A stretch of 64,000 bases of DNA, taken from NCBI GenBank assembly GCA_963924555.1, contig OZ004581.1:2356001-2420000 (forward strand), in the 5' to 3' direction. The position numbers and the translations under genes were made by a program. Shown here in pieces: positions 33,842 to 60,996 of this stretch. This stretch comes from Crambe crambe (Eukaryota > Porifera > Demospongiae > Poecilosclerida > Crambeidae). The notes under the pieces are model-generated. The model was not told the origin of the DNA and did no database searches. It saw only the letters and a program-made list of their open reading frames with translations. The first letter of the stretch is position 1. Every line of letters starts with the position of its first letter.

Positions 33842-33885
<44 letters not shown>

Positions 33886-35433: not shown

Positions 35434-35486
<53 letters not shown>

Positions 35487-36598: not shown

Positions 36599-39500
36599 TT
36601 ACTCCATCACAATTTTTACAAAATAAGGTTTTTCAAAATATTTTTTCACTCTGTCGAACAAGTGATCCAACTCTTCCTTAGTGTTGTCCTTCGTCTTTGA
36701 GTATAATCTGACTCTATATTCCAGAAATGCCTGTGGAAGATTCAGTTTGGAAACTTGGTCCTGCATGTGCATATGACTATACTAATAATTATTAGCATCA
36801 ATTTATATGTAAGTTATGAGTTGTAGCTATATGTATACTCGAATTCAAGTTTAACTGAACTAGCAACTGTACCTCAGTATCAGGATTATTTCTCAGTATT
36901 GTTGTCTTATGAAAACAAAACTCTTGATCATCATCCTAAATGAAAGTGAAAAAAAAAAAAAGATGAGCTAGGGCTTGATGGATATGAATAAAAGTTACAA
37001 CATATCACTGTATATATAAGCACACTGGTGTGCTGTCACATATGGCTACAGCTATTAGTACATACCCTACTGAAGAAGTACATATCCTTTAAAGGATCAG
37101 GATCATCCTTTTTTTCTGATGCAAATTGTATTGGCACACACTGAATAATTTGATACGTAATCCATGATGACTATATACGTAATATGTAACTGTCCATTTT
37201 ACTACCCACTTCTATTTCCATTCTCTCATTGGCAGCAAATTCTTTATGACAATTCTTCTTTTTGGCTTTCAAATCCTTCTGCTTTTCAATCTAGAGAAAT
37301 AGCATCCACACAGTAGCTAGTAGTAGTTAACTCCACTACTATTTGGAGTCGTCCTATGTAGCTACCTCTTTTTCTGCAGCCTCTTCATAGCCAAATTGGT
37401 CTGATCTTTCATGAGGCCAGGCTAAAAGTGGGTATGATTTCTTACGTTTACATTTATACATCACACTTTCATCTCTGCTCATAATTCCCTTTATGAGTTT
37501 TTGAGCCTGCTCCATAATAATATTAATAATGACAATAGTATACTATGTTACTGAAGTACCTTTTCTAATCCTTTTTCTAACACTCGAGTTTTCCCATGTG
37601 GTGTAACAATGCGATGATGCATAATGCAATCTAAGATTGTGTCAGTTAGCATGATATATCCAGCTAAATCAGCTTTATGAGATAGCACGTTCTTAACTGC
37701 ATCCATCCAGGAGATCGGTCCATCACTACCACATCCTATCATTTTAACATCCTTTACCGCAATGAAGATATCTTTGATCCTATGCAATTATGGTCATACT
37801 GTATATTATTATACATGCATGGTCAAACTCACATCATTTCAATTCCATTCGTAACAGGATGCTGATAAGCTTTTTGATGTAAAATACTACGAGTTCTAAA
37901 CATACCATAGATATTGTTCACCTCCTGTTCAATGATACTGCAAGTATAAACATCGATATTCTTGCCTACATTATAGAACCTTGCTTCTGAATCCAATATG
38001 TAGTTCTCTGTCATCTCTGTCAAGAATGATTTCACTGAGTTCCATACAGCGTCTGTATGACATAAACGACTGTGAACATCATGTCCCTATTATGTACATA
38101 TATGTTTAAACTTTCTGTAATGTACTATGATTTTATGCCCAAACAAAGTAAAATGTTCATATCTGCTTAGGCCAGTTTCAGTGTATTATCCCCCCCCCTT
38201 CCATCTGTTCATAATAGTACCTCCAGTCGAACTCATTGGTAAGTCCAAGGTAATGACAGTCACGTGCAAAATAGTCCCACTTGTCCACATCCATACCACT
38301 TGTTTTATTAGCCACAACCTACAGGTGCAGCAGAATAGTAGCCATAGTCCTACATACATGATAGCAATAGCTAGATACATACCTCATAGAGGAAAATTGG
38401 TTTGAAAGATTTCCCTTTGATTTCGATAGTCTCCTACGTATATAAAAATCCAAGTAGCATATATATACATCACTTATTATGATTGACTTCTTTATGCATA
38501 CTATTTTCTCCTTTATCTTATCCATATCTGGATCAATCATGCTCTCAATAATCTCAACATGTGTCTTCCTCAATCCATGGACAATGAAATTAGCCAGCAC
38601 CAGAGGATGATCTAAAAGGATCTTCTTGAATATTAGCTTGGAAAGTTCTTCATGTCTTATCATTTCCGGCTGTTATAATTATACATAGACTAATGGTATG
38701 TACGTAGCTATAAGATCAATGTAATAAAGCTAACGAACCTCGATTATCTTAACAATTTTTCCAAATAAATGTGAAAGTGGACCATGACCTTATAAAACAT
38801 CAAAGATCAATCAGCTGTCTAATTTTTAATGATAATTATGTATACATACCTAAGTCATGGCAAAGAGCAGCAACTCTGATACAATATTCATCCTTGATAC
38901 AAAACAGCTTCTTCATACTTTCTAAACATTTTGATGAATCATTCAGCTTTCTTCTTTTCCTATTCTGAAGTAGTTGTGAGTTTGTTCTTTTTCTTCCTCT
39001 TTCAGCCCTGAATGCCAGAATTTCTTCCCTTTGACTTTCTAACTGTTCTCTTAAATGTCGGACTAACTCCCCAGCAATGTAGCATACACTAAATGAAATA
39101 TATTGTACAGTGTACATGCATAGCTAGATCATTAAACATTGACTACCCAAGAGAGTGTTCAAATCTTGTGTGGGTTGCTCCAGGATACACATGAACGACT
39201 CCTCCTGTTGAATATTCTAATCATACATGTACTAGTTATGGTTACAAAAAATTGTTACCAAGTTGTTTTATATCTTTGAGCCTGAAGAACTCTGGAGTAT
39301 TGATCATGGCTTGTTCCAAACTATTCAACTTGATGGAGCCATGAATTGGATCATTGAAAATTTTATGATCTTTCTAGTAAAGAGAGCAATACAAAAATCT
39401 TCAGCTAGTACCAGTAGCTGTGTATTTCCTATACCAGGTTTTCCTTGATAGCTGCAATCTTCTCCATGCATTTTCCTGTATACATTATATGGGTATACTA

Positions 39501-40538
39501 ATACGTATTGCATGCATGCTGGTGAGTATTTACTAGCTCTTCGTACCTAAAGAGTGTTATAGCCATTATCAATCGATCACTAATTGAACTCCTAGTTCTG
39601 TATGGTCATACTTTTATGGAATGTGTTTTTACATCCTGAGTCTTTATTATGCATACATACATACCGTTATATATTTGGCGGTGTATTAAATTTGATGGTT
39701 TAGTGGTCTGTCTTGGAACCACTAATTATATAATGTCCGCCAATATCTATAGCTATTGGGGGTGGGAGGAGGAGGGGTGGCTAGCTCGAATGTATGCACG
39801 CACAAGATCAAGTAGCTAGCTAGTTCCATTTCCAGCTGTTTTGCGATCGTGATGGCCCAAGTTCTCGAAGAAGGAGGAGGAAAGGGAGTATTTCCTTGAT
39901 GGAAGCTCAAAGAGATAGATCATGAAGTGAAGAGGACGGAGCAAAGTATCAGACCAAAAAAAAAAGAGAGGGAAGCAGCATGCATGAGTGCGCGATAACG
40001 CGCCGCCACCAATAATAATAATGTCCGACAAAGGTGTATGTGCTTACATAGGGATAGGAAACATGGGGGCAATGGAGCCAATGGCCTCCATGCCTAAAAA
40101 TGCTATGGGGGCCAAGCCCCAATGGAGCTAATTGAGCAGTACATTAAGGTATTGCTAAGAGCCGGCCTGAGGCTGAGATTTTATTGAGACTCTATGAGAT
40201 TTACATGTATGCCACATGAAGTTATCAGTAATGATTTCATGCATGCAGGTGTCAATCAAAGCACAGTACGTATTGGTTTCATACTTGCCTGAGCACTTGT
40301 GCATGCTCCAGGCCTGCACTAGCCCTAGCTCTAGCCTTCTAGCTCCAAGCCCTAGCCCCCTAGCCTAGCAATGTCACTTAAAGGACATAGTTATTGTAGT
40401 TATACAAGGTAATGCTTTATAGCCAAAGATACACAACTTACCCACTTTGTCATCTAAGTCGGATTTTACTGTTTCTAAGCAATATTCGATTATCTCTTCT
40501 GCAACTATTATGATGTCTTCTGCATCCACACTAGCCAT
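36599..40538 (-). CDS. SAMHD1-like: SL-E: SAMHD1-like dNTP triphosphohydrolase
   Basis: Exons (minus): 40442-40538, 39435-39475, 39259-39373, 39147-39204, 38850-39088, 38739-38788, 38502-38669, 38383-38433, 38221-38318, 37980-38052, 37833-37924, 37560-37779, 37366-37506, 37210-37290, 37066-37140, 36873-36935, 36599-36760. They join in phase to 607 aa. Motifs: [34 protein letters not shown] (Phe to Leu against the usual motif), [35 protein letters not shown]. The HD metal ligands and dNTP-site residues are kept, so an active enzyme is predicted. It carries a basic insert before CHDLG ([10 protein letters not shown]...RKRRK) that looks like a nuclear-localisation signal and is absent from the sister copies. 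No Death-fold or SAM domain is seen. SL-D starts only 260 bp beyond its stop codon. Small ORF 1 lies 2.2 kb upstream on the same strand. Confidence 0.93.
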
Positions 40539-42240
40539 TAGCTATCAATTCCAATCACTACTACAAACAAGCCTTACAGCTGGATCTGTGGATACTTTAT
40601 GGAATGCATTTTTATACCTCATGATTGACTCATATAAGCATGCACGCCTCTGGTCATGAATGCACTTAAGTTGGAGACACAAGTCTGATTGTTATAATAA
40701 TTATGGTCATAGTTGACATAGCTGGAAGATTAAATCAAGGATATGTACATACATATGACCAACAGCAATAGCTATGTACATGCATAGTGTCCATGTAGTT
40801 CATACAAACCCATGAGGTCTCTTATGGCTACTACAATAGCTGTTAGCTTTGTTACGTATGATAACAAGACACTATTTCGAAATTTCAAAAGTCTGCATAT
40901 CTAACTTTCCCTTTCATCTGTTTTGATAAACAGCTATCTTCAAATCACAATAGAGTAATGCTTACTGGATACAAAAATGATCATGCTATTCAACCACTAT
41001 TGCATTAGCTAATTCCCATATTAGTTCACATGCCAGGGGGACTGATCAGTTAGATCATTATACTATATAAGTAGCTAATCATGTCGTAGCAGACTATTAT
41101 GGATATCTACGATAGCTATATTATTTGCAGGACAATGCTTATAACCTGTAACTTGATAGTGTCTGTCCAGTGCATTTGAGCCCAGTCTCTCCCTCCACTT
41201 CCTATTTTAGTTGCGATTAAGACATAGAAAACATTTTTTCTAAGCAAGTAAGACACTCCCAATGGGGTTCTTCATGGAATTATTCGCTTCGGTGATCAAT
41301 TACGTACATCACTTTAATTCCATGATGAACTCCATTGAGAGTGTCTTACCTATATATACCACAACCACAATATTACCATTATGGGATCCAGGAGGTGGCA
41401 TGTGATGGTTGCAAGTACATTACTTGGACATTTACTTGGACATCAGGTTAGTTATAATGCAAGAGAGCAACTAGCTATTTATGTATAGTGCCCTCATAGT
41501 CAAACTACGTATTTTGATCTAAGTGCCGATCTAAGCCCTAGACAAATTACTAGTGTATGCAGCTACACTTCTATAATTTTTCACATGTGCCAGGTGAAAG
41601 GGCAGTCCAGTAGTCCATTCCAGTAGTCCAGTCCACCGATTGTATACACCCCTAAGTGTCCATGAGATCTCTGTTATGATAACAGCTAATGTATCTTCAA
41701 ATTCCAATAATGCTTACTGGATATAAAGAGTATAGCTAGTGTATTAGCTAGCTATACATGTTATTCAACCATGGGAAAGTTATTGTATTAATTTCCATAA
41801 TAGCTCACAGTTGAGCATTATAGCTACTTCTATAAAAGTATAGAATCATGTTATAGCAGACTATTATGGATATCTATTATGTGCAGGACAATAGCTACAC
41901 CTGTAACTTGATAGTGTCTGTATCATCAGACCACCATAACATTATTCATGGATTTGGTAATGTATGCATTATTGCCTGTTCCAGCATTCATGTATATAGT
42001 GCTAAGACACCTCACCACAGGCAGTACGAGCCTATTTTAGTTGCCTTCATGGAGATTAAGACACCTCCTCATTATAGAAAACATTGAAGTTCACCATATT
42101 CTAAGCAAGTAAGACACTCTCTTCATGGAATTATTCGCTTCGGTGATCATTTGCATGACCTTCAGTGTCTTTAATCCCATGAAGAACCCGATTGAGAGTC
42201 ACGATGGTGTCTCGTTCCTGTCTCATTGAAATCACACCTC
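40539..42240. repeat. Repeat-rich intergenic region
   Basis: Contains copies of the 'TTATTCGCTTCGGTGATCA' segment (41280 and 42126), the 'ACTTGATAGTGTCTG' family (41150 and 41900-41960) and sequence resembling 3750-4050. No gene is seen. Confidence 0.5.
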
Positions 42241-42697: not shown

Positions 42698-43096
42698 CTA
42701 CTCCATGGGATGTTCTTCAAATAGATATGAACAAGCCCGCATTATAATTATACTCAACTTCTCTCCCTTCTCTCCATCCTTGACCGGTTTTCTTATTTCT
42801 TTGTTAAGTGCCAGTTCTCTGTCCCGTTCTTTCCGTCCGTTTTTGCCCTCCACAAAATACATTGTGTGCTTTCCACACTGTACAGTATCTATTAGTTTAG
42901 CCCAGTTCTTTAGCTCTTCACTTTTAATCAAACTCTCTTCCACAGCTTGAAGTTCAGATTGATCAAAATCTTTGCAATCTTTCTTCATTATCATAATCCA
43001 GAAATAGTTAACACAATCATCATTGTTTCCTGGATATTTCTTTTTCAGCAATTTACCAATTTCGTCTGTAGTCATCTCATTTTTCTCGAATGGCAT
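42698..43096 (-). CDS. Small ORF 1: unrecognised partner-family protein, 132 aa
   Basis: Single-exon open frame. I do not recognise the family. Shared blocks with the copies at 47065 and 57828 are TT-EIG-LL near the start, YFWIM, a KD/KRD...FD segment, W-KL-D-V-CGKHTMYF in the middle, RDREL-NKE, then SIIIMRAC near the C-terminus. Predicted soluble, with no signal peptide or membrane segment; charged and probably helical. An internal Met at residue 8 lines up better with the starts of the other copies. It lies upstream of SL-E on the same strand. Conservation of blocks between diverged copies suggests selection. Confidence 0.75.
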   Translation of the reverse strand: MPFEKNEMTTDEIGKLLKKKYPGNNDDCVNYFWIMIMKKDCKDFDQSELQAVEESLIKSEELKNWAKLIDTVQCGKHTMYFVEGKNGRKERDRELALNKEIRKPVKDGEKGEKLSIIIMRACSYLFEEHPME

Positions 43097-43244
43097 TGTA
43101 GCTGCAGCTTAGTCTACTATAATTAAACTATGACACTCCCTAATATTATTGCGAGCTAGGGTTGAGGTATAAGTTCAGTTCTGAGACTGTCAAGAGACCA
43201 ATTATTCAAGTGTGATTAAAAATAATGCAGATTTTTTTTCAAAC

Positions 43245-43720
43245 TAATAGAATTCATGAAGTGGCTATACGTCCGGCAGCCAGACGCGATTTTTTAATTG
43301 GGGTCAAAGGTCGGCCACAAATCGCGCATGCTCGAAAACCTCTGATGTCAGATTCCTGTAACTTTGTCTTGAAGTCTGTAAGCTCAGTATTCACTTTTCG
43401 GTACCTTCTTTATCTGTTCATAGTCTCAAAAGGCAGGTGAAGCTTGGAACTTGATTGGCACGGCTAGAGTTGTGACCTTTGACCTGTTGCTAAAAAATCA
43501 AGTTCCAAGCTTCACCTGCAGATAGAAGGCTTTTGAGACCGTAAACAGATAAAAGAGGTTCCGAAAAGTCAATGCTGAGTTTACTAAACTTCAAAACAAA
43601 AGTTGCTGGAATCTAGCATCAGAGATTTTCTAAGTTTTTGAGCATGCGCGACCTGGTGACCTTTAACCCCAGAAACCGTTAAAAAATCGCCAGCCGGACG
43701 CTATTAGCTAGTCTATCGGT
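43245..43720. mobile_element. Foldback element, about 475 bp
   Basis: The left half (43245-43450) and right half (43490-43720) are imperfect reverse complements. Matching pairs include CAGGTGAAGCTTGGAACTTG and its inverse near the centre, and CGTCCGGC / GCCGGACG toward the outside. No coding sequence. A tRNA-like segment follows at once. Confidence 0.7.
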
Positions 43721-43730
43721 TTCAAACTGA

Positions 43731-43800
43731 GCGTTGCCACTGTAGCGCATTGGTTAGTTTGGAACGTCCGGTAGTCGGTTCGAATCCTGGAATTGCTGGC
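43731..43800 (+). other. tRNA-like segment (pol III promoter, SINE head or tRNA relic)
   Basis: TGTAGCGCATTGGTTAG resembles a tRNA A box and GGTTCGAATCC is a consensus B box about 35 bp downstream, the normal spacing. The T-stem and acceptor stem do not pair properly by eye, so this is probably a decayed tRNA or the head of a tRNA-derived SINE rather than a working tRNA gene. Confidence 0.45.
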
Positions 43801-46800
43801 TTCTTTGGATCTGATCTATGACAGTAAACTCCTCCATATCATGTAATAGCAAACTAATTATACCCACAGGACAATATTACATACCTATAACTTGATAGTG
43901 TCTGTAACATCAGACCACCATAAAAAGAAACCATGGATTCAAATTTTCAAGGTATAATAAAATTCATTGATTACTTCCTCCTACATCTGCATGCAAATTA
44001 TACATGCTATGAAAACCAAGCATGCCTGCTTCAATCATGCAATTTTTTTCTAGCTTCAACTAGCTACCACACAACTCAACTGGAAAAAATTGGCATAAAT
44101 CATTAATCACTAGCATGACGTGGCACAAAAATTGGCTGATGACGTGGCACAAAAAATTGTAAACTCATGTGGCACAAAAATTGTAAACTAAGGTGTGATG
44201 ATTGAATGTAGTTAGGGGCCTCTGGGTCCATGGGAGGAGGTCCCTGGCATAGTGTCAACCATACACATGTAGCTATATGTATAAGTTTCTCCTTCTGGGT
44301 GGTTGAAGAATTACTTAAGTCAAAACGTGTGTTATTCCATTAATCATAACAAAGTTTGGAGATATTTTGTATGACCAACATAATGTGACATTTATACTTA
44401 TCATATCACATATAGAGAACACTGCATGTGTACTATCCGAATTACAGTTTTGGTACCAAACTGAAGCATGAGGTAAAATCGTGATATATATTATATGCTA
44501 GCTAGCTGATATAATAAACAATAAAAGTTTATATGCATGCATGTAGCTATTATCATTAGCACCTATAATACATGTAGCTAGTCAATCTTCATGTGGACAT
44601 TCAAGCCCATCTTATGATAATATTATACTCGAGTTCTCAATTTCCATTCCCTCCTTGGTTATTTCCTTGTTTAAAGAGCGCTAGTTCTCAAGCTGTCCCC
44701 TTTCCTTCCGTCTTTATTGCACTCATGTAGCTATTTTTCACACAATACAGCATCTTTTAACTTATGTTTCCATAATAATGTCATCCAATAATAATCATGG
44801 TATCTTAATCCAAAATCCATGGTTAGCAATTTTCTTTTGGAGTTACGTTATCCATGAGCAATAAAAGATTAAGATCCCTATACTATATCGTTATGCATGG
44901 CAGCATTGTAGTTATTATGATTCATGGCACACACATGTTATTATCATACATGTATACATTATAGCTACTGCATGCAGGGTCACATGATTGTCATATGATT
45001 GTCACATGCTAGTCATCTTGTATAGCTACTGACATATGTACAGTAAGTACTAATTGTGCATGTATTATGATATCCCAAAAATAATTATTATACAGCTTAT
45101 TGATATTGATGACATCATGCATGCATGACATAATAATAGTGCACATGTGCATGCATGCATTCATGATACTGGGAAAGACATGTAGAGACTGAGATATGCA
45201 TGTAGCTAGGTGGCATGAAAACAATTCAACCAATGAATTAAGTTCAAAAATTCAAAATCATGAATATGTATACAGACTCCTGTTATGGGAGGTCTGAACA
45301 AAAGACTGATGACACCTGAGAACCTGCTGTGTCATCACATGCAATGTTATACCAAAAGCTAGATTATTTTAATTTTAAGGGCCCAATGAGATATCTCTAA
45401 TGGCTAAATGTAGCCATTAGCTTTCACAGTAGCTTTCAATACCTCATGTGTTATGACTCAGCTAAACATGCTAGACACCATTTCAAAATTTTCAAAATCA
45501 CCTGAATCTTCTGTTTATCAACTTTTTCCATCTGTATGATAAACAGCTACGTAGCTATATCCTTGAAATCATGATGTTTACTAAGCATGCATTCAACCAT
45601 TCATGAGGAAGTTATTGCATTGTCAATTGTGATAGTACTAGAGAAAAGGGTCTTATGGAGCAAAAATTCGACATAGAGTCATTGGTACCATTAATTCTTA
45701 TGGTTTAGAAATCAAATTAATGCTCCCCAAGTCCAATTTTACATCTTGTGTATACTTATTGTAAACTTTACAAGCCTTTTAATATTTTGTGTGATAAGAT
45801 CCCTTTTCTCAAGTACTATCACAATTTATCATTGCTACAGAGTAGGAAGAGGATATGACAGTAAACTCCTCCATATCATGTAGTAACAAACTAATTATCA
45901 TACCTGCCATACGCTGTAACATCAGACCACCATGTAAAAGAAACCATTATTCATGGATTCGAATTTTTGAGGTAATAAAATTTATTGATTGCTTCCTCCT
46001 GCATTTGCATACAAATTACGTATGAAATCCAAGCATGCATGGCTGCTCAAACTATGAAAATCATGCAAGCGTGCCTGCTTCAGCCATGCATGATTGTGTC
46101 AAGTATACACATGTAGCTTGTAGCTTCTCCTTCTGGATGGTTGAAGAACTACGTACGTAAGTCAAAACGTGTGTTATTCGATTAGCTAATATGGCAAAGT
46201 TCGTAGATAATTATTTGTATGAATTTACATGACATTTACGTATCATATCACATATATAGAACACTGCATGTGTACTATCCAAATTATCTCTCTTTGGTAT
46301 CTTAATCCAAAATAATCCATGGTTAGCAATTTTCTTTTGGAGATACCTCATCCATTGTATGGCTATGAGCAATAGAAGATTAAGCTCCCTACTGTATCAT
46401 ATGCATGACAGGGTCATATAGCCGTTATATAGTCACATGTTTCATAGCACACACATTATTATCATACATGTACATAGCAACTACATACAGGGTCACATGA
46501 TTGTCACATGCTAGTCATCATGTAGTTACTAGAAGTACACCACAAGCATTATTGTGCATGTATTATGATATCCATTGATATCGATGACATCATGACATAA
46601 TATGGTGCACATGTGCATGCATGCATTCATGATACATGTAGGCAGCATGAAAACGATTCAACCAATGAATTTGGTTAATTCAAAAATAGATTCCTGCTAT
46701 GGGAGGTCTGAACAACTAGCTATGTACACCTGAGAACCTGCTGTGTCATCACATGCAATGTTATACCAAAAGCTAAAGTTCTACAGATTATTTTGATTTA

Positions 46801-47064
46801 AGGGCCCAATGAGATATCTCTAATTGCTAAATGTAGCCATTAGCTTTCATGGTTACTTTCAATACGTCATGTGTTATGATAAACACATTTCAAAATTTCA
46901 AAATCATCCGAGTCTTCTGTTTATCTAACTTGCTGATTGTCATAAGAGACTTGTGTTTATAATTATGGCTAATCATGTGACATTATTAATAATAGCTACG
47001 TGATCCTGTATGACATTATACGGGAGTGTCGTAAATAACAAGATCTAGAGCAAATAGCTGTACA
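43801..47064. repeat. Two tandem copies of a composite repeat of about 1.5-2 kb
   Basis: A string of motifs appears around 43820-45540 and again around 45850-46950: CTCCTCCATATCATGTA, ACATCAGACCACCAT, ATTCATGGATT, CTTCTCCTTCTGG, GGTTAGCAATTTTCTTTTGG, GTGCATGCATGCATTCATGA, GAGAACCTGCTGTGTCATCA, CCCAATGAGATATCTCTAAT. Further copies lie at 52130-53580 (plus) and 55740-56800 (minus). Inside each is decayed sequence resembling the small-ORF family (about 44600-44830 and 46280-46380, minus strand), with in-frame stops. Confidence 0.7.
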
Positions 47065-47465
47065 ATGGCATCCAAGATAACCACAAAAGAGATTGGTAAA
47101 TTGTTAACTGAGAAATATCCAGGAAGAAACAATGATAGTATTGATTATTTTTGGATCATGATATCGAAGAGAGATGAATGTTTTGATCAATCAAGACTGA
47201 ATGATATTGTGGAGAAGTGTTTGATGCAAAGTACACAGATAAAGGAATGGTACAAACTAAACAATACTGTACAGTGTGGAAAGCACACAATGTATTTTAT
47301 AAAGTACATAGAGTTAGAGAAGCAGAATGAACGGGACAGAGAGCTGGCACTAATAGGGAAATAAGAGTGCTAGGAAATGAAACTTGAGAAGTTGAGTGTC
47401 ATTATAATGTGGGCTTGTAATTATTATCATGAAGAACAGGACATGGACACTAGCAGCTAACTAGC
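47065..47465 (+). pseudogene. Small ORF 2: partner-family copy with late frameshift
   Basis: Open for 99 aa (47065-47364) with the family blocks TTKEIGKLL, YFWIMISKRD, WYKL and CGKHTMYF. It then shifts frame within the RDRELAL block: the following bases encode NREIR in another frame, meet a stop, and later EKLSVIIMWAC in a third position, which matches the family C-terminus. So it is either truncated by about 30 residues or recently broken. It ends 490 bp before the SL-F start codon, same strand, and could share a promoter region with it. Function not recognised. Confidence 0.7.
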
Positions 47466-47587
47466 TATATACTGATCATGCAGTGATCTTACAATAATTT
47501 TGTTGTTTGTTATCATAATTATCATTTCGAAGGAAATATATAGGCAGTGTGGCACTGATGTATGGACCCTCTCAGTCCCTCTGGCTT

Positions 47588-47612
47588 TTTTTTTTTTTTT
47601 TTTTTTTTTTTT
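47588..47612. repeat. T homopolymer
   Basis: About 25 T in a row, between small ORF 2 and SL-F. Confidence 0.95.
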
Positions 47613-47852
47613 GCTATCCTCTGAACTGCTGAGCCACTGGACAGTGAAGCAGTGAAATATAATGTCAGCTTCACACTATATAGTATTTTTGCTATTATTG
47701 TTCTTGTGAAATAATACTTCAGACACTCTATGATAAGTGTATTCATAATGCATAACTTAAAATTTAATGCTTCCATATAAGGCTTGCTATTTAGATAAAC
47801 CTACACAATTAAGCTATTCTTGGTGTGGAGTTCTATTTTGTCTAAGCTTACC

Positions 47853-50800
47853 ATGGCTACTGATGAAGATGAAAAAAAGGCAAGGGATATCATTGAATAC
47901 TGCTTGAAAACAGTAAAACCAGCCAATAATGACTCAGTTCCAAAATTGATAGGTAAGATTCACTTAGCTTAGAACCTCAACACATTAATTAATACATAGC
48001 TAGCTAGGATTTAGTTTAGAACCCAAGTATCACCAGCTAGAATATATATGGAGGCTTTTATATCTTCCTTGACATAAAGTTTGTTACCTTTATAGTTACA
48101 CAGCTCTAGTCTTTCAGCACAATGACAAGGTGATACTAGCGCTAGCTAATACCTACATCACAATGTTGATTTGTCATAAAAAAAATACCCTAGGTATAAA
48201 GAACAGCTAGCTCTGTAGCTCCTAGCTAGTTACGTAGCTACCCTAGTAGCGTGCCAAGCCGAACCAATCCTCCCGATCCTTGCACAAACAGCAGCGATCG
48301 CGATGCCGAAGCCTAGCGCGCATGTGCGCCTAAGCTCACGTGCGTGCGCAAGAGCTCACGTGCATGCGCCTGAGCATAATAATAATGACATTCATTATTG
48401 CAGAAAACTGTAAGAGGGAAATTGAGGAAATCAGGAAAAAACAGGTATAAAAAAATCATAATGTTTAAAACTGAGAGATTTCCTTATATCCAAACAGAAA
48501 GACCCCCAGCTGATCAATGATCCAATTCATGGTTCAATCAAGTTGAATAGTTTAGAACAGGCCATGATCAACACTCCAGAGTTCTTTAGACTCAAAGACA
48601 TAAAACAACTTGGTAAATAATGACTAGAGGGTGGCTAGTGGCAATATTAATACAAGTTGTTGTTGTTTTTATGATAATAGGGGGAGTGGTTCATGTGTAT
48701 CCAGGAGCAACACATACAAGATTTGAGCACTCCATCGGGTAATCTTCAAGTATAGCTAGCTAGCTAGCTATATTCATTAAACACCTCGAACAGAAGAAAC
48801 CATGCATCTTGTCAGTAAAGTACAAGTGGGGTAATCCTGAATGGTGCATGGGATAAAATATTAATTCCAAACAGTTCAAACTCCTTGAGTTTATGAGCTC
48901 TGTTTCAAATTACTATCCTAGAGATTATAGCGATCCTCAAATTTTGACCTCAGAAGTCTCAATAGTTTCAGAATTATTCCACCATTCGGAAATACCCTGC
49001 TTTACCTTAACGTGCAAATGTTCAGCTATACTATTTAGCCATCATACTGTCTGCCACTGATAACTGTACACCATGATTAAGATTTCTTCTTGATACAGTG
49101 TCTGCTACATCGCTGGAGAGTTTATTAGGCACTTCAAGCAGCAACTAGAAGAGATGAACAGAAAGAGATGCACATTCGACGACAAAGTCATGGAGTTAGT
49201 ATGGGAAGATGAAAACTGTATCAGAGTGGCTGCTCTTTGTCATGACTTAGGTGAGACCTGCTATTTATAAAAAGAACGAGAGTTACATATTTCGTACACC
49301 AATTAATATAATAGGTCATGGCCCATTTTCACATATTTTTGGAAGTGTGGTTGAAAATGTGAAAAATAAGGTTTGCTCCATACTTAAATTGATGGCTGTA
49401 GCTAGTTAATTTTTTAATCTGGACAGAAAGAGGATGTTGAACAGCCTGAGTCAAAAGAGAAGTATGTGTTCAAACATGAAAAACTGTCCCAGTTGATATT
49501 CAAGAAGATCCTTTTAGACCATCCGATAGTGCTGGCAAACTTCGTGGACTATAAAATGGATTCAGATCACGTCCAGAAGATTGAGCATATGATTCATCAT
49601 GATGGCAAATTTGATGTCAAAGTCAGTGTAATTAAGTATTAGTCCATCATCACTTCAAAGAGAAATTTTATTGTGTTAGGATCTAGATGAGAAAACTGGA
49701 TTTAAGAAATGTTATCTTTACGAGGTAAATTAAGTCCTTGAAATCGCTCCAAACCTGTTCTTCCATAGATGATCAATGATTATGTTTTATAGATTGTGGC
49801 TAATAAAACAAGTGGCATGGATGTAGACAAGTGGGACTATTTTGCCAGAGACTGCCATTACCTTGGACTCACCAATGATTTCGATTGGAGGTAGTTACGT
49901 ACCCCATTAGCTAGTATAGATGTGCCAGCCACCATTGCAACATAAACTCCGCATGCTGTAGCTAACTAACTAGCTATACAGTAATTTCTTGCATCATCTT
50001 TGACTGCACTTTGCCTATATAAAGTATATGCATGCATAATTAGGTATGTGTTTCTCTCAGATAGCATCTTACAGTTACTTCCATTCTAGGGATTTATATT
50101 CAACTATTGGGCTTATTCCTCACACATGCATGAAGATGATAAGTTATAATGATCATACAGTATGTGCACCTTGTATTATTAAAAAGAGGATCATTTTTGC
50201 TATGCTACAGACGCTGTATGGAACTCAGTGAAATTGTCCTTGATGGAAATGAGTTACATATCGGATTCAGAAGAAAGGTTATATTTTTCTAGGCAAAATA
50301 TATAGCAATGCTATGAGCATAGTTAATGGTAATTGTAGGAGGTGAATAATATTTATGGTATGTTTCGAACTCGGAGTGTTTTACATCGGAAAGCTTATCA
50401 GCATCCTGTTGCAAATGGAATTGAAATGATGTGAGTTGTAGATTTGTAGCAAGCTATATTATATACGTACGTAGCTATGAGGAACTGAAGTGAACGTATA
50501 GAAATTTAATTATATTTTAGGATCAGAGACACACTCATAATGATTAAGGATGTGAAGATGATACATTCTGAAGACTCCATTTCTTGGTTGGAAGCAGTGG
50601 ATAGAGCATTTTCTGACGAGGCTGATCTATCCGGCTACATCACGTTAAATGACAGTATCTTGGATCGCATAATGCATGTACCACTCAGAGGCATTGAGAA
50701 TAAAGTGAATCTTAGAGATGTAGGTACTGCATGTTTAAGCTTCAGCAGTTACGTAGTCTGATATTTATTGCAATGATAAATTTTTCTATAGGCCCAAAAG

Positions 50801-51829
50801 CTAGTAACAGCAATAATGAACAGAGGTACTAACTGGTACAAATGCGAGACTGAGCATGAAGAAGCCTATCCTGTTACTGATGAGGTAGCTATGTAAGCTA
50901 GCTAGTCACACTTGCATGTATGATGTAGCTACATGTAACTATAAAGTAATCGATAATAATTATTAGACCAGGTAAAGTTGTTTCTGATCTCTTATTGAAC
51001 ACTTCACCTTGATTTCAGTGAGTGAAGGAGGTCATTATTCATTATGACCAAAAAAATAATAATAATAAAAACATCAAAAAGTGATCAAAATTAAACCTTA
51101 ATTTCGTTGGTGTGGCTCCCAAGATTTGTTATTGAGAGGGCATTCCAAGGTGGTGAAACAAAGATCTATACTTTATTCAACCTTAATTATTTCATAATAC
51201 CATAACTAAAGTGGAACTTTAATTTGACAGGTTCAAAATAAGGATTTAAAGAAGAAAATGGAAGGATTGAATCGATGGTCTCACAAGTCTTCTATCGATT
51301 TGAAGCTAATGGAAATAGAAGTACTGTATAAATTATTCAACATTATGATCTAAAATTTTAGCTCAATACTTCATGTTTGTTCAGTGTGTGCCAATCAAAT
51401 TTGCATCAGAACGTAAGACAAACCCCTTGATGGACATGCATTTCTTCAGCAAGGTGGATTATAATTAGCTAGCTAGCTATAATACAGCATTGTCTAACCA
51501 TTATGGCATTATGCATGGTATATTACCTTTAGAATGCCAATAAACACCAATCTGGATTTCATGAAGCCAAAATGTATAGAGAGGATTCTGAAATCATGGT
51601 AATAATAACTATGTCATGGTAGAAATTGAACATTGAATATTAATTTTGGGATAGTTTTTAGATGTTACATAATTATTTTTATTCACAGGGGAAAGTTTCC
51701 AAACTGAATATACCACAAGCATTCATAGAATATAGAGTCAGGTTGTACTCTAAGACGAGGGAGAATAAAAAAGAAGAACTGAAGCGTGTGTTTGACAAAG
51801 CTAAAGAATATTTTGACAAGAGAACATAG
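47853..51829 (+). CDS. SAMHD1-like: SL-F: SAMHD1-like dNTP triphosphohydrolase, intact reference copy
   Basis: Exons: 47853-47952, 48404-48444, 48498-48612, 48681-48738, 49099-49250, 49315-49370, 49427-49621, 49680-49724, 49793-49890, 50211-50277, 50339-50430, 50521-50719, 50792-50884, 51231-51320, 51385-51453, 51533-51598, 51689-51829. All junctions are GT-AG and the frame stays open for 558 aa. By position: NDPIHG 54-59; [11 protein letters not shown] ending at H102; H153-D154 of CHDLG; H157 and H162 of GHGPFSH; H191; D266 of DVDKWD; R321, H325, Y329, Q330 of the dNTP helix. These match the metal and substrate residues of human SAMHD1, so activity is predicted. Residues 1-33 form the short N-terminal peptide shared by the paralogues; there is no SAM or Death-fold domain. 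At the positions equivalent to human D137, Q142 and R145 (GTP allosteric site) it has N72, F77 and K80. Confidence 0.95.
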
Positions 51830-54200
51830 CTAAAAATAATTATTATATTTATGAAGAAATTAATTTTTACAATGTATTAACTATCATGCATAGGTAACAT
51901 AATATAGCCAATAACTGGCTGGAAAGTGGGTGTGGCTTGTTATGTGTACATTTTTGTTGGGTTTTTTGTTGTTGTTTTTTTTGGATTACTACAAGTAATT
52001 CTTGAGTAATGAATTATTAACAGATATATTGCAGTGCAATTTGTGCTATGAACAGTTTATTAATTTTGTGTGAGTCCGGTCTTACAACTCTTGATCCCAC
52101 TATAATGGTACCTTAACATAATATTATAACTCAGCATACACACAATACATTAGCTAATACCAAAAGACAGTAACTTTACCTAAAGCTAAAGTTCTATTTT
52201 GATTTAAGGGCCCAATGAGATATCTGATGGCTAAATGTAGCCATTAGCTTTCACGGTAGCTTTCAATAGCTACCTCATGTGTTATGATAAACATGCTAGA
52301 CACCATTTCAAAATTTAAAATCATCTGCATGAGTCTTCTGTTTATTTAACTTGCTGATTGTTATGATAAATAGCTATGTATATATCGTGATGTTTATAAG
52401 CATGTCATTCAACCATTCATGGATTTTGCGTGATCTTCACACAATACAGCATCTACATTTCCTCCATTTCAAAATAATATCATCCAATAATAATCGATCA
52501 TCTCTCTTTGGTATCTTAATACAAGAATAATCCATGGTTAGCAATTTTCTTTTGGAGTTACCTCATCCATTGTATGACTATAGCTACATGAGCAATAAAA
52601 GATTAAGCTCCTTATAAATATACACTGTCGTTTAATATGTATGGCAGGGTCATAGCTATAGCCATTATAGTCACATGATTCACAGCACACACATTATTAT
52701 CATAATAATATATGTACGTACATAGCTACTGCATGCAGGGTCACATGATTGTCACATGATTGTGACATGCTAGTTATCGTGTAGCTACAGTAAGTACACC
52801 AAGCATGATTGTGCGCATGTATTATGATGATGACATCATGACATAATATTATGGTACACATGTGCATGCATGCATTCATGATACTGGGAAAGGCATGCAG
52901 AGACTGAGACATGTAGGCGGCATGAAAAACATTCAACCAATGAATTTGGTTAATTCAAAAATTCAAAATCATGAATATGTAGTTTCCTGTTATGGGTAGC
53001 CCTGAGCTAATTATTCATATATAGATGCCCATTATTCAAGTATTTTATTCAACATTTTGCTCCCTATTATTCAAGAGACAGCCCCCTATTATTCAAAACA
53101 GAGTGATGACAACACTCTGACTGACTGACCAATGTGGCTAGAGACAAGTAATAAGGATCATTATTAAGGATGTACATTGACAGGATTGACAGTAATAACT
53201 ATTACATAGTTCATTAACTCATCGATTATTGTACTGAAGCATCAAAGATGTCTCAGTTAGAGCCTATTATTCAATTTCTGAAAGAAGCTACCTATTATTC
53301 AAAAAATTATTCCTGAATAATTAGCTCAGGCCTAGTTATGGGAGGTTTGAACAAAAGACTGTTTTGCTATGTACACCTGAGAACCTGCTCTGTCATCACA
53401 ATGTTATACCAAAAGCCCAAGAGCTAAAATTCTACAGATTATTTTGATACAATCCTCCCTTAAGGGCCCAATGAGATAACTCTAATGGCTAAATGCATGT
53501 GTCCTTTAGCTTTTACGGTAGCTTTCAATACGTCATGTGTTAGTTATGATAAACATGCTATGCACCATTTCGAAATTTCATAAGGATTTAGGATATCAAG
53601 TAGCTACATTTCTTAAATGCTGTAGTTCATGTTCTATGTCTTCCTCAATAGATATCAACTTCTCTGCCCTGTCAAACAAACATTTAACTACACCTCGCTT
53701 GTGGCGTGGTGCAATTTAAAATTCAAATAGCTACCTGTCAGTGTGGGTGTAAACTTTGATACTGATTAAATTGCCATTTTCTCTTCTTGTCACCTCACAA
53801 TCCAAGATTGATGGTCTGACACTATTCAGGTGAGATTTCTTCTCCATTCTTCAATATGCTACAAATGTCATCCACATACCTACTCCATATTCTAGGTTTC
53901 ACAGAAGGCTAGCCGAAACGTTGAGATTGTGTTTAATTAAAATATGTATGTTGATATGATGTGATTATTATTATAAAATATATATAATGTCAACAAATTT
54001 TAGACCCCAATAAATTTTCACAAACATAAATATTATAATTATGAAGAAATTGCAATGTATCACCTATCATGCAAATGTAACATAATATAGTCAACAGTTG
54101 GCTGGAAAGTGGGTGTGTGTATTTTTGTTGGTTTTTTTTTTTTTTTTTTTTTTTTTTTGGATTACTACAAGTAATTCTTAACAGCTTAGCTACTTGCAGT
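51830..54200. repeat. SL-F 3' flank followed by composite repeat, left arm of an inverted duplication
   Basis: 51840-52030 is repeated at 54040-54185. Between them, 52130-53580 is a composite repeat unit of the kind at 43820-46950, including a decayed small-ORF-like piece at 52500-52620. The whole block recurs in reverse at 55500-56800. A T run lies at 54131-54158. Confidence 0.7.
53590..53950 (-). pseudogene. Penelope-like retroelement reverse-transcriptase fragment
   Basis: Minus-strand pieces read WSRYVDDICSILK (the Y-x-DD catalytic box of reverse transcriptase), then in another frame LDCEVTRRENG...VYTHTDR, then HKRGVVKCLFDRAEKL. This order and wording are typical of Penelope-like elements. 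Frame changes and stops separate the blocks, so it is dead. It is inserted in the left arm of the inverted duplication and is absent from the right arm. Confidence 0.75.
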
Positions 54201-55500
54201 GCAATTTGTGCTAGCTATATACATAGAGTTTATTTGTGTGAGTCAACTCTTGTAACTCTTGATCCCACTATATAATTATGGTACCTTAATATTAGCTTCT
54301 GGCTATAGCATGCTACAATTATTATCATAAGCACTGGACAGGTGTGTGACTAACACCTGCATGGCTGTAACAGTTTAATAACTTCCATGAAATTGTACAT
54401 AGCTATAGCTACAGGAGCATGGTTGAAGCAGCAATAGCTAGCTAGATACTCTTTGTTTGCACACATGCAGGTGTACATGTATAGCTAGCTACATGTAAAT
54501 CAATGATTTCTACACAGCTAATAGTTTGAATAGTCCATTAATTTTTATGGTGGTCTGATAATACAGATCATGTTACAGGAATCACTGGCAATGAATTCAC
54601 TTGCAGCAGCTCTAGCTACACTGTAAGAATAAATGCGCAACTGAGCTGGTTAGTGAGACACATGCATGTGTCTGTCAGTGTGTCAATGTTATTCATGGAT
54701 TTGAATTTTCAAATTAATAAAATTCATAGATTACTTCCTCCTGCATCTGCATGCAGATTATATTCATTAGCTAATAAGCGTGCATGCCTGCTCGAGCCAT
54801 GAATGATATATTGCTAACTCATGCTCCAGTAGCTAAGCTAGTCCATACAGTCTCTCCCTCTTATTAGTTATTCCTCAGCTATGCTACTATCATAATCTAC
54901 AGTATTAGTGCTGCAATTGAGTCACAATAGCTAGCTATAGCAAAGATTGCAAATGTGCAGTTCTGCAGGGCTCCAGGGGAGGAGGCAACTACCATAACTA
55001 AACTTGTCGAGCCATTAGCTAGTTGAATTAGTCAACAGCCATAATTATAAACAATCATCAAAAATAGAATGCATGTGGTGGGTAGCTAGCTAGCTATAGC
55101 TACCTATTATGTAGATATGTATTTGTACCTACCTATTTGTGTAAATTGAGACATCCGTTATTGAAACAATAAAGCTCAAAGTGCACCTACAGTGACCTTT
55201 GACCTACAATATATGAAATACAGTATTGATATATCATATGAAAGTAAATTTTATTTGCTACAAGATGGTGTAAGTTGTAGCAAATAAAAGCAAACACAGA
55301 GAAAGATATGGCCAATTGAATAACTACAAGTTCACCGAAAACTGGGATTTTGTATTGGGCATAACAGGGAAGCCATTTAATGTGTGGTCCTAAAAATTAC
55401 TAAGAAGTAATATCTCATCATACATTATGTCTGTACCAAGTTTCATTAAAATCCATGACTGATATTTTTTTTTTGTGTTGAACTGACTTGGAATGACCCG
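54201..55500. other. Spacer between inverted arms
   Basis: AT-rich, with short copies of sequences resembling 3980-4210 and 4070-4260 (around 54650-54870). No gene is seen. Confidence 0.5.
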
Positions 55501-56800
55501 TAAGCTGTTAATAATTCATTACTCAAGAATTACTTGTAGTAATCAAAAAAACAAAAAACAAAAAATGCACACCTAACAAGCCACACCCATTTTCCAGCTG
55601 GCTGTTGGCTATATCATATTACCTGTGCATGATAGTTAATACATTGCAAAATAATTTCTTCATAAATAATTATAATAATGATAATTATTTTTATGTTCTC
55701 TTGTCAAAATATTCTTTTGACATTTTTATGTCACAAGATTAGTCATAATTATAAACATCAGTCGCTTATGACAATCAGCAAGTTAGATAAACAGAAGACT
55801 CAGATGATTTTGAAATTTTGAAATGGTGCATAGCATGTCTATCATAGCTAACACATGACGTATCGTGAAAGCTAAAGACCACATTTAGCCATTAAGGATA
55901 TCTCTTAAATAATCTGTAGAATTTTCTTTTGGTATAACATTGTGATGACACAGCAGGTTCTCAGGTGTATATAGCAAAACAGTCTTTTGTTCAAACCTCC
56001 CATAACAGGAAACTATGTATTTATGATTTTGAATTTTTGAATTAACCAAATTCATTGGTTGAATTATTTTCATGCTGCCTACATGTCTCAGTCTCTGCAG
56101 GTCTTTCCCAGTATCATGAATGCATGCTCGCATGCACAGGTGCACCATATTATGTCATGATGTCATCAGCACAATCACGCTTGTGGTGTACTTACTGTAG
56201 CTACACGATAACTAGCATGTGACAATCATGTGACAGTCATGTGATCCTGTATGCAGTAGCTATGTACATACATATATGATAATATGTGTGTGCTGTGAAT
56301 CATGTGACTATAATGGCTATACATACATAACGATAGTAACTTTATTATATTTATAAGGAGCTTAGTCTTTTATTGCTCATGTAGCTATATAGCCATACAA
56401 TGGATGAGGTAACTCCAAAAGAAAATTGCTAACCATGGATTATTCTTGTATTAAGATACCAAAGAGAGATGATTATTATTGGATGACATTATTTTGAAAT
56501 GGAGGAAACATAGATGCTGTATTGCATGAAGACCACGCAAAATGCATGAATGGTTGAATGACATGCTTATTATAGTAAACATCATGATAATAATTATATG
56601 TAGCTATTTATCTAAACAATCAGCAAGTTAGATAAACGGAAGACTCGGATGATTTTGAAATTTTGAAATGGTGTCTAGCATGTTTATCATAACTCATGAC
56701 GTGTTGAGATATCTCATTGGGCCCTTAAATCAGAATAGATTGCTGTTAGTTTGTCTTTTGGTATTAGCTAATGTATTGTGTGTATGCGTGAGTTAATATA
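55500..56800. repeat. Right arm of inverted duplication
   Basis: Reverse complement of 52130-54185, lacking the Penelope fragment. At 55690-55735 it contains the reverse complement of the last coding bases of SL-F (AAAGAATATTTTGACAAGAG), so it once carried a SAMHD1-like 3' end on the minus strand. Confidence 0.7.
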
Positions 56801-57427
56801 TAACCATTGACATGGCACTTGGCTTCCATGCTAGGGTGGAATGAAGGGTTGGTAGTAGTGCAAGGGCCACTCCCCCACTTGGCTCAAGTAATTGTGGAGA
56901 CCTGCCCTACATAGCTATAACATACGTAAGCCTACATAATTATAAGCTGCCCAGCCTGGCTATTATGGGCAGCCTGCATGAATACGTACAGCATAATTAT
57001 TATGCACATAATTATAGCCTTATAGCCCAGCGACATACAGTCAACATAACAGCATGAGGGAGTGTTGAAGCACATCATGAACATGCAAAGGCAATGCATG
57101 CATGCATGAATTATAAGTGTCAAAAAAAATCTTATAAAAGGAATGATAACTCATTAGCCAGCAAGCTAAAGGCTTACATAGCTACAGTTATTTCCAGTAG
57201 CTATAGCTATAGAGCAATTCATGTCAGAAGAATTATGAGCTATTTAATTTTTTTTTAGCTACTTACTTTCCAATTCCATTCTACGTACATTTCTCTGCAA
57301 TAATAATGAATGAGTATTTAGCTACAATATAATCCTCATGCAGGTGCACGTGTAGTATGGCATATCGTGCTATAGATAAGGTTGTCAACGATATATATCT
57401 TGATTCTTCATCTTCATCAGCAGCCAT
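55690..57427 (-). pseudogene. SAMHD1-like: Relic of a second SL-F-like gene (first and last exon scraps)
   Basis: At 57427 on the minus strand an ATG opens a segment reading MAADEDEE, closely matching the SL-F first exon (MATDEDEK), and it diverges after that. Upstream sequence (57440-57830) matches the SL-F promoter region, and small ORF 3 lies beyond it as small ORF 2 does for SL-F. The far end, 55690-55735, matches the SL-F last exon. All the HD-domain exons are gone, and repeat DNA fills the gap. Confidence 0.65.
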
Positions 57428-57827
57428 GGTGATTTAGATGTGCTCCACACAGAGAATAGCTGAGTAGCTAGCTAACTGTGGGTTTATCTAAATAGCAAGT
57501 GAATACACTTATCATGGAGTGTCTGATGGACTATTAGTATAATTATTTTAAAATAATATTATTATATAGATGGCTACATCGCTGATATTTTTTTTCACTG
57601 AATGCACCTGCAATTGTTCTTCTCTATCTAGCTATATATATTTCCTCTCTATCCAGTGGCTTTTTGAAATTATAACTCTCAGCAGTTCAGAGGATATAGC
57701 TAGTCTGGTGTAGCAGACCCTTTGTTATACTACTCACTATTGCCAGAAGAGGGTCTGTACATATATCAGTGCTATCACTTATTCTCCATTGACAATGATA
57801 ATAACAAATAACAAAAATTAATAGTAG

Positions 57828-58199
57828 CTAAATATTAGATGTGTATAAACAAGCCCGCATTATAATGACACTCAATTCCATTTCATCCTTGATTAACAAT
57901 CTTACTTCCTTATTAATTTCCCGTTCTCTATCCTGTTCATTCCATCCATCTTTTTTATCATACCTTACGAAATACATTGTGTGCTTTCCACACAGCACAG
58001 CATCTTTTAACTTATACCATTCCCATCCCTCTGCACTATCAGCCACAGACTTCTCCACAACATCATCCAATTCATATTCATCAAAAGTTTCATCTCTCTT
58101 CGATACCATGATCCAAAAATAGTCAATAGGCCTGCAATCATTGTCTGAATATTCCTTTTCCAATTTTTCTCCAATGTCTTTTGTAGTTATCAGTTCCAT
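57828..58199 (-). CDS. Small ORF 3: unrecognised partner-family protein, 123 aa
   Basis: Intact single-exon frame beginning MELITTKDIG and ending shortly after ELSVIIMRACLY. It shares the family blocks: YFWIMVSKRDE, FDE-EL-D-VEK, W-WYKLKDAVLCGKHTMYFVRYD, QDRERE-NKEVR. No signal peptide or membrane segment. It sits 400 bp upstream of the SL-F-like relic on the same strand, mirroring small ORF 2 and SL-F. The ORF has outlived its enzyme neighbour. Function unknown to me. Confidence 0.77.
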   Translation of the reverse strand: MELITTKDIGEKLEKEYSDNDCRPIDYFWIMVSKRDETFDEYELDDVVEKSVADSAEGWEWYKLKDAVLCGKHTMYFVRYDKKDGWNEQDREREINKEVRLLIKDEMELSVIIMRACLYTSNI

Positions 58200-60996
58200 T
58201 GTCTTGGTCAGCTATTCACCAATTTCTATTGTAGTTATCTTGGATGGCTATTAGCCACGTAGGTCTAGATCTCTTGATCTGACACTCCCTGTAATACTAT
58301 GTAATGTGTAGGTGTTAGGCCACTATTAATAGAATAATTGTTTCCTGTCCACTGCCGGCGCGGCCATATTAGTCTGGCGGCGCCGACCCTTTACCTCCTT
58401 TTTCTTGGGGGCGGGGTCGGCGCCGCCAGACTAGGAGGTTATCAGCTATTATTGCAGTGCTTCGTTGTCCATTCACCACGGGGTTTCCCAAAAAGAGCTG
58501 TTTGTGAAGCCAAACGTGCGCGCTCTACTGCGCTCATGAGCAGTAAGTCTCGCGAACCAGACCGCTTTTTTTTTCTTTTTCTTTTTTTTCGCAGAGCGGA
58601 GGGACTGGCCTAGCTAAACTTGTGTTGCACTGTCAGCTATTATCTTATTGGGCGAGGAATGTTGATATAAATACAATAAAGTTAAGTGGGTATGGATAAG
58701 GTCATGGCCACGTGAGCTTTGTAATTTGTGCTGACTGCCATAGTAGAGAGCGGGAAGAAACTAGGCTATGACTGTATATGTATAGCACACACTGCATCTA
58801 TGTCTCATTTCCTCCAAGAAATCCAGTGATAGCTAATGCTCTGAGAACATCCTTCACTTCTTTAGAACAGGGCCATGGAGCCTCTTTTTCCTCCTACGGT
58901 CAGAAGACACAGATCTAGAACACAAACAGCAAACTGACATCTTTTCAGTAGCTATAGCTAGCTTTGCTTTGTGGCTTTTTTATCTGACCATGTGCTAATG
59001 ATTATCCATGATTTTTGTGGACAGTGTAACACACAGACCCTGCTCTGTGAAAAAAAAAAGTAGTCTCGTGGTCTGGCTCGTGAGACTACATGAGCAGTGG
59101 CAGTAATAATATTTTTTGATGCGGTGATGATATTTTCAATACGCCCGCAGCACTTGTGGATGTCTTCTTGGACAGGAAACTGGATTCAATAGTGGCCTTA
59201 ATAAATAATATAGCTATTGTATCAGCCATGAAATATGAGTCTCTTATAATTTTGTGATGACGCAGTATATAAGCATGGGATGCAGAGATTGAGACATTTA
59301 GGCGCCATGAAACCTATAAATTGCTAATATGCATGTAGCTATGTTAGTTTAGAATGTAGGGCAGCCAGTGGTATTTCCTTGAAATCAATGATGCAGAAAA
59401 ACATGTGACTCAGACAATTAATGACTGACTTCTTTACAGTACAAGTGAATGCAAAAAATTTCTTCGAAATAAAAATGTGAAGTAGGGATGCTATTATAAC
59501 TGCAGCTTCATTATGAAAACCAAGTACTGCAGCATCGAAGCAGTATGGCCCAAAAATCTAGCTGGAATATGTATTATAACTGCATGCAAGAGAGTGAACT
59601 TAGTGAAGTGACCCTTACCCATCATCAAGTACAAGATACTATTCCTACTTCACTCCCATGATCAAGGGCCAATTACGTACCAAATTGAAGCATATAATGT
59701 GAATTTCAGGATGGTAAGATATTGATGTAATGAACAATAAAAAATATACTGCCATATGCATCCATATGTATAATTGCTATGATGAGCGCAAAAAATTCCT
59801 CCTAAATAAAAAGTCAAGTAGGGATTGCCATAAAGTTTAGGTGCATTCCTATCATTCCTAGCCCTCCTAATTTCAATAACCACCCTAAATGAGTCAAGTA
59901 ACCCCACAGCAATATATTACAAAACTACTATTCACTCGTAGACTAAGTCTTTACACATCTGAATGCATGGTAGCCATTAGTCATGTGATAGCTATGATAT
60001 TATCCGAGACACACAATTTTCAAGATTTCAATTATTATAGTCTGTATATAATTATGTGGTACACAAGAGGGTGATTGATCTATGACCACAGTCAAAATCA
60101 CTATACTACTATACCTCCTATACTGCATGTGCTGCTACAATAATTATTAATTAAAACTTGATTGTAAGAACTGGTATAATAGTTATTATACGTTAAGAGT
60201 CAAACCCAAGGGCATTACAGTAATAACACAAGAAAGATTATTTATAATAGCTATAATTACTATTATGAGCACTATATCATGTATACATGTATATATAGCT
60301 AGCTTAGTCAATCTTCAGGATACACTTTATCATCTTCAAACAGAATAAGCCCGCATTAAGGGATCATTTCTATGATTGAATGCATTGAAAAACAATGTTA
60401 TGAGAGGCTATATTACATAGTTCTGTATCATTAGGTCATCGACAAGAAGTGCTTGGATCTCCCTTGATCCCCCCCCCCCAAAAAAAAATTGTTAGATCAG
60501 AGGAAAAACTTTTTTTAAACACACTCTGCTTCATATTAGGTATACATTAGGGACCAAGCACTCCCTCACCATAATTTTTAGGCATGTAGCTAGGCTTATC
60601 AATCTCTCTAAGACCTTTTCAGTTTTCAGAGTAGCTACAAAGTCTTCCGAATAGCAAAGCTACAATATAAAATTTAATGTTGCTGCTAAAAAATTACTCG
60701 ATTAGCTACTGATAGTCATGCACTTACGTACTATAGTGTGAACATTACTACTTCAATGATCAGCTATAATATGAACTTACGAGTTTTTTTTGCACCATTT
60801 TTTAAACTCTTTGCTATAAAAAAAAAGTTGGAAGAAGTGACAAAGACCTTATAGCTAACTATACGTAGCTAATCCTTGATACTAGCACATTGAATCATTA
60901 GTAGCTACGTATAATAATGTAGTCATTGTAGTGGGGAAACTGGCAGCAGGTCTGTCAGAAATACATACATATACGTACTATCATGTGCTGACAGTT
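58200..60996. other. Intergenic, repeats only
   Basis: Contains a 70-bp hairpin at 58365-58436, a pyrimidine tract at 58566-58590 next to TCTCGCGAACCAGACC with related inverse sequence at 59062-59090, and the 'CAAGTAACCCC' family with AAGTAGGGAT phrases (about 59440-59960). A C/A-run is at 60470-60488. No gene is supported. Confidence 0.5.
58365..58436. mobile_element. Tiny TIR element or hairpin
   Basis: TAGTCTGGCGGCGCCGACCC and its inverse are separated by only about 30 bp. The outer 11 bp match the ends of the element at 28868-29410, so this may be a minimal deletion derivative. No clear target duplication is seen. Confidence 0.6.

Follow-up and report, generated by a model that had tools for sequence, protein, structure and literature searches.

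A small gene family, probably single-exon and orphan, within a SAMHD1-like gene array of the sponge Crambe crambe

Results

A SAMHD1-like gene array spans the locus

The window, by which we mean the whole 64,000-nucleotide stretch of DNA that was analysed, corresponds to C1:2356001-2420000 of a 143-Mb assembly and lies at the middle of an array of SAMHD1-like (SL) genes that extends over C1:2325665-2436000, mostly on the minus strand. Manual grouping gives 11 multi-exon SAMHD1-like units in the array, together with two remnants of a single exon and one lone first exon. Three of its components are relevant here, each located 3' of a member of a family of small open reading frames (copies B, C and D below): SL-E, next to B (36602-40541, minus strand), is defined by open frames containing exon matches; SL-F, next to C (47853-51826, plus strand), is defined by exon matches; and a relic matching SL-F lies next to D (57404-57499, minus strand; 71.8% over 103 columns). 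The hand-joined exon translations of SL-F match SAMHD1 structures (4.6e-39), and the alignment with SAMHD1 chains includes the motifs CHDLG and GHGPFSH together with one 12-residue stretch, which identifies SL-F as a SAMHD1 homologue.

Outside the array, one SAMHD1-like match was found among the matches listed (C21:2851888-2852001), and the genome searches detected no copy of the small ORF on that contig. The Pfam HD family likewise gave one match outside the array among those listed for the assembly, and the scarcity of such matches is perhaps due to the short exons of the array genes. This single HD match (G000:C97:8385-8756) falls within an open frame of 481 codons; the 10.5-kb contig that carries it is possibly a microbial contaminant or symbiont. 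Among the papers listed in literature searches on sponge SAMHD1, one concerns SAMHD1 in the context of human transposable elements, and another (PMC12254500) uses a sponge as outgroup for a different gene and cites SAMHD1 papers.

Several further features were observed in the window. On the minus strand, positions 30339-30674 match the C-terminal domain of the TNP-like RNase H family in Pfam (8.9e-9, above cut-off), which probably remains from a DNA transposon of the P-element/THAP9 type; an open frame at 21689-22162 contains Chlam_PMP-type repeats (5.3e-9, above cut-off); and an open frame at 1669-2256 has a sub-threshold match to the Death domain (E 0.0066). A short repeat arranged in two facing blocks (33452-36004) is open in several frames.

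The small ORF family is confined to one cluster

An earlier note on this DNA had described three related small ORFs, all of which we recovered: copy B (42698-43096, minus strand), copy C (47065-47465, plus strand) and copy D (57828-58199, minus strand), with protein identities of 50% between B and D and 57% between B and C. As the note had it, B (132 aa, intact) and D (123 aa) are open; C is a pseudogene, with 99 codons open and two internal stops. Two of the sequence blocks said to be shared, YFWIM and CGKHTMYF, are common to all three copies, but the third, IIMRAC, is present only in B and D, since C has IIMWAC, beyond its stops. Two additional full-length copies are located outside the window, copy A (C1:2286292-2286687, minus strand, intact) and copy E (C1:2427314-2427760, plus strand, frameshifted). 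The assembly therefore contains at least five full-length copies, all those found lying within 142 kb (C1:2286292-2427760). The same five were returned by three whole-genome searches, using the B protein, the D protein and the B DNA, in which counts are lower bounds, and this agreement implies that the family is not dispersed through the genome as an element would be.

A DNA profile of the surrounding 210 kb added four fragments: a decayed one between B and C (44585-44764, equivalent to C1:2400585-2400764, minus strand; nhmmer 7.2e-11), and three others at C1:2423605-2423785 (minus strand), C1:2429860-2430029 (plus strand) and C1:2431240-2431333 (minus strand). Fragments are interspersed with the composite repeats in the array, as had been noticed earlier; tblastn matches with E >0.01, some of which lie in these repeats, were taken as chance unless the DNA profile concurred.

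A and B are the nearest pair (p-distance 0.135, compared with at least 0.26 for every other pair) and are separated by 112 kb. Their homology runs from positions -43/-46 to slightly beyond the stop codon and has a sharp 5' edge. We considered a retrocopy origin for A on the basis of this edge and of a short motif at both ends; no poly(A) tract was seen by eye at A. D and the fragment region C1:2429788-2430029 each bear part of a second small-ORF 5' end (58202-58290 and C1:2429788-2429933, respectively) and match each other at 81% over 146 bp, so that they may be sister copies.

Coding status and gene structure

The length of the small ORF alone is unsurprising, since the longest stop-to-stop ORF per random 64-kb window reaches 109-170 codons (n=20 windows). 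The ORF is nevertheless more than a chance frame because the copies are homologous, dN/dS is below 1 for A and B, and indels preserve the frame, those among A, B and D being without exception multiples of three in length. For the A-B pair, dN is 0.086 and dS 0.276, which gives a dN/dS of 0.31 (bootstrap 0.15-0.64), and differences at codon positions 1, 2 and 3 number 11, 9 and 22, respectively. The open part of E gives values of 0.39 against A, 0.39 against B, 0.46 against C and 0.42 against D, with upper bounds of 0.82-0.89. Only A-B and the comparisons with E show clear constraint, because in the other five pairs (A-C 0.65, B-C 0.59, A-D 0.58, C-D 0.57 and B-D 0.77) the intervals reach 1 and variability does not peak at the third codon position. 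In a neutral simulation consisting of substitutions only, with 110 substitutions, the number estimated for the branch of D from p-distances, 3.5% of trials kept a 369-base frame open. Coding status is best supported for A and B, the evidence of constraint being weaker for D; the family is real, and at least A and B are probably functional.

The small ORF starts in the context ACAATG, with in-frame stops nearby upstream in A and B, and its C-terminal end is conserved (MEID then a stop codon in A and E). Four of the five full copies are preceded by the element GGGAGTGTC, which is found 5' of B at 43132-43140 (minus strand), at the edge of the homology with A, 5' of C at 47022-47030 (plus strand), 5' of D at 58281-58289 (minus strand) and also 5' of A; no exact match is present upstream of E. 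In A, B and C, 41-44 bases separate the element from the ATG; in D, where a short 5' tandem duplication accounts for the greater distance, there are 90. Within 210 kb we saw six occurrences, four of them at small ORFs, against 0.57 expected from base composition, and the element may belong to a start site or may be a splice acceptor. The small ORF would be a single-exon gene in its own right, independent of its neighbours and with a start and stop of its own, though conceivably with an intron in its 5' untranslated region.

The small protein matches no searched family above cut-off and has a predicted ferredoxin-like fold

The earlier note had considered the family unrecognised, and the profile searches bear this out. 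Nothing scored above the cut-off in Pfam or in a PDB sequence search, NCBIfam gave no match up to E 1 and PHROGs none below E 0.15; no relative was found on viral contigs, and none above the cut-off on bacterial and archaeal contigs. The nearest Pfam family, DUF4718 (PF15842), was matched by two of the five members (best E 0.0032) at 17.7 bits, below its curated cut-off of 27 bits, so that membership is not indicated; the match covers at most positions 28-101 of 184. Searching the genome with DUF4718 gave one match (15.7 bits, E 0.86), and a literature search for this family found no paper.

Structure prediction gave models of middling confidence, both of which drew on the same three sequences. 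The best of five models headed by B had a pLDDT of 60.7 and a pTM of 0.50, and the best of five headed by D had a pLDDT of 69.5 and a pTM of 0.65 (the other four had pLDDT values of 47.5-58.3). The two agree in the order of their elements: an N-terminal helix comes first, then beta-alpha-beta-beta-alpha-beta. The protein would most likely combine an N-terminal helix with a ferredoxin-like domain. Foldseek searches with both models, including a viral structure library, gave no match with E <=0.001. Solved structures among the matches listed are mostly ferredoxin-like or contain such subdomains, with scores close to those typical for models without a clear match. A likeness to IS200-type transposases was rejected (best E 0.0069; first encountered at rank 34 with the better model), and matches in the viral structure library were also dropped (best E 0.0035). 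The ferredoxin-like arrangement is very common and uninformative on function. No hydrophobic segments were found in A, B or D, and the encoded protein, of about 15 kDa, is hydrophilic and probably cytosolic.

These data bear on whether the small ORF lacks a host function and belongs to a transposable element or to the composite repeats. Fragments do sit among the repeats of the array, the homology of A and B ends sharply on the 5' side with A as a separate copy 112 kb away, and constraint is unclear in several pairs; a transposable element would, however, be expected to disperse, and the five full copies found form a single cluster in 143 Mb. The constraint between A and B, the empty profile searches and the lack of a relative on viral contigs also argue against this explanation, which we regard as unlikely.

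Small ORFs and SAMHD1-like genes are inconsistently paired

B, C and D each lie 5' of SAMHD1-like sequence on the same strand, in agreement with the earlier observation. The stop codon of B is 2.2 kb from the first-exon ATG of SL-E, C is 0.39 kb from that of SL-F and D is 0.3-0.4 kb from the relic. One copy had been said to have outlived its enzyme partner: at D a relic is indeed present, but it amounts to a match of about 100 bp to sequence surrounding the first exon of SL-F, with about 24 coding bases. Copy E is 4.4 kb 5' of SL10, with a reverse-strand SL remnant in between. On the same strand as the respective gene, one fragment precedes SL10 by 2.1 kb and another precedes SL9 by about 3 kb, measured to its first matched exon. 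Each of the distal units (SL-E, SL-F, SL9 and SL10) therefore has a same-strand copy or fragment upstream, whereas none was detected upstream of SL1, SL2, SL3, SL4, SL6, SL7 or SL8 (7 of the 11 multi-exon units); no first exon was recognised for SL7, SL8 or SL9. Among the three open copies, only B adjoins a multi-exon SL gene; D is accompanied by the relic and A stands alone, with no SAMHD1-like match within 39 kb, so intact members are not always found beside an intact SAMHD1-like gene.

The duplication histories also differ. SL-E is nearest to SL3 (99% over 118 residues; 83% over 3.4 kb), in a tree where the support for this fork (83/86) is under the program's 95/80 mark and the SL10 row was one column off in one exon (the identities of SL10 to three others were corrected). 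These two genes share the first-exon ATG and about 0.36 kb of collinear upstream sequence, beyond which there are short matches only, out of line or in repeats. No small ORF was detected upstream of SL3, and the proximal 5' region of SL-E therefore exists without one. The partners have not duplicated together in this case, since the sister of B is the lone copy A. C and D, on the other hand, are alike not only in the ORF but also in parts of the spacer and in the beginning of the SL exon, which implies the duplication of a single ORF-SL unit, in line with the earlier note.

The note's central proposal was a two-gene module. On such a reading the small protein would serve the enzyme as a dedicated partner or regulator, and the pair would be ancestral to the distal array, with members lost later. 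The like order and strand of the three pairs, the shared spacer parts and exon start of C and D, and the same-strand fragments or broken copy 5' of SL9 and SL10 are what this predicts. Against the proposal stand the isolation of the intact copy A, the seven units that have no detected copy or fragment, the mismatch between the B/A and SL-E/SL3 sister relations and the SAMHD1-like match on C21, on whose contig no small-ORF copy was detected, and we judge it quite unlikely. The SL-E and SL-F pairings, presented as the independent evidence, agree in order and strand, but only B with SL-E is intact, since C is broken. These pairing tests reduce the evidence for a module to B beside SL-E and a same-strand tendency in the distal array. 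Its specific version, in which a small ferredoxin-like protein is the dedicated partner or antagonist of an expanded family of SAMHD1-like dNTPases and B with SL-E is the surviving working module, is highly unlikely. That the small ORF is a 5' exon adding an N-terminal domain to the SAMHD1-like gene is scarcely credible, since the shared strand and the position 0.3-2.2 kb upstream are outweighed by its own ATG with upstream stops in A and B, its own stop codon and conserved C-terminal end, the common first-exon ATG and 5' region of SL-E and SL3, which lack the ORF, and the absence of an SL gene downstream of A.

Discussion

We consider it probable that the small ORFs form an orphan gene family, single-exon and independent of the enzyme genes, which has undergone birth and death inside the SAMHD1-like array. 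The codon-position counts outside the A-B pair make this reading slightly less firm and lend slightly more weight to the alternative without host function. The small ORF would have been copied and lost within the array through local duplication and inversion, which would place some copies just 5' of an enzyme gene. The small-ORF and enzyme copies look to have multiplied largely separately, making the small gene an ordinary neighbour rather than half of a two-gene system. The small protein may act alone, as a small domain with a binding function; that it takes part in nucleotide metabolism or innate defence is a guess suggested by its neighbours only.

This analysis adds a probably functional orphan family and removes a likely false 'system', since adjacency in a scrambled array is weak evidence of a functional pair. 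If the pair were kept in other sponges, it would indicate that an early-branching animal possesses a protein that regulates SAMHD1-like enzymes.

Compared with ferredoxin-like proteins such as designed ferredoxin folds, ACT domains and ribosomal protein S6, to which identity is 2-20% in the VIA rows listed, the small protein has an additional N-terminal helix. Taxon-restricted (orphan) gene families occur in tandem arrays. The family described here, searched for in a single animal genome and a candidate for such taxon restriction, resembles them in forming one cluster, in having no known domain and in comprising both intact and broken copies.
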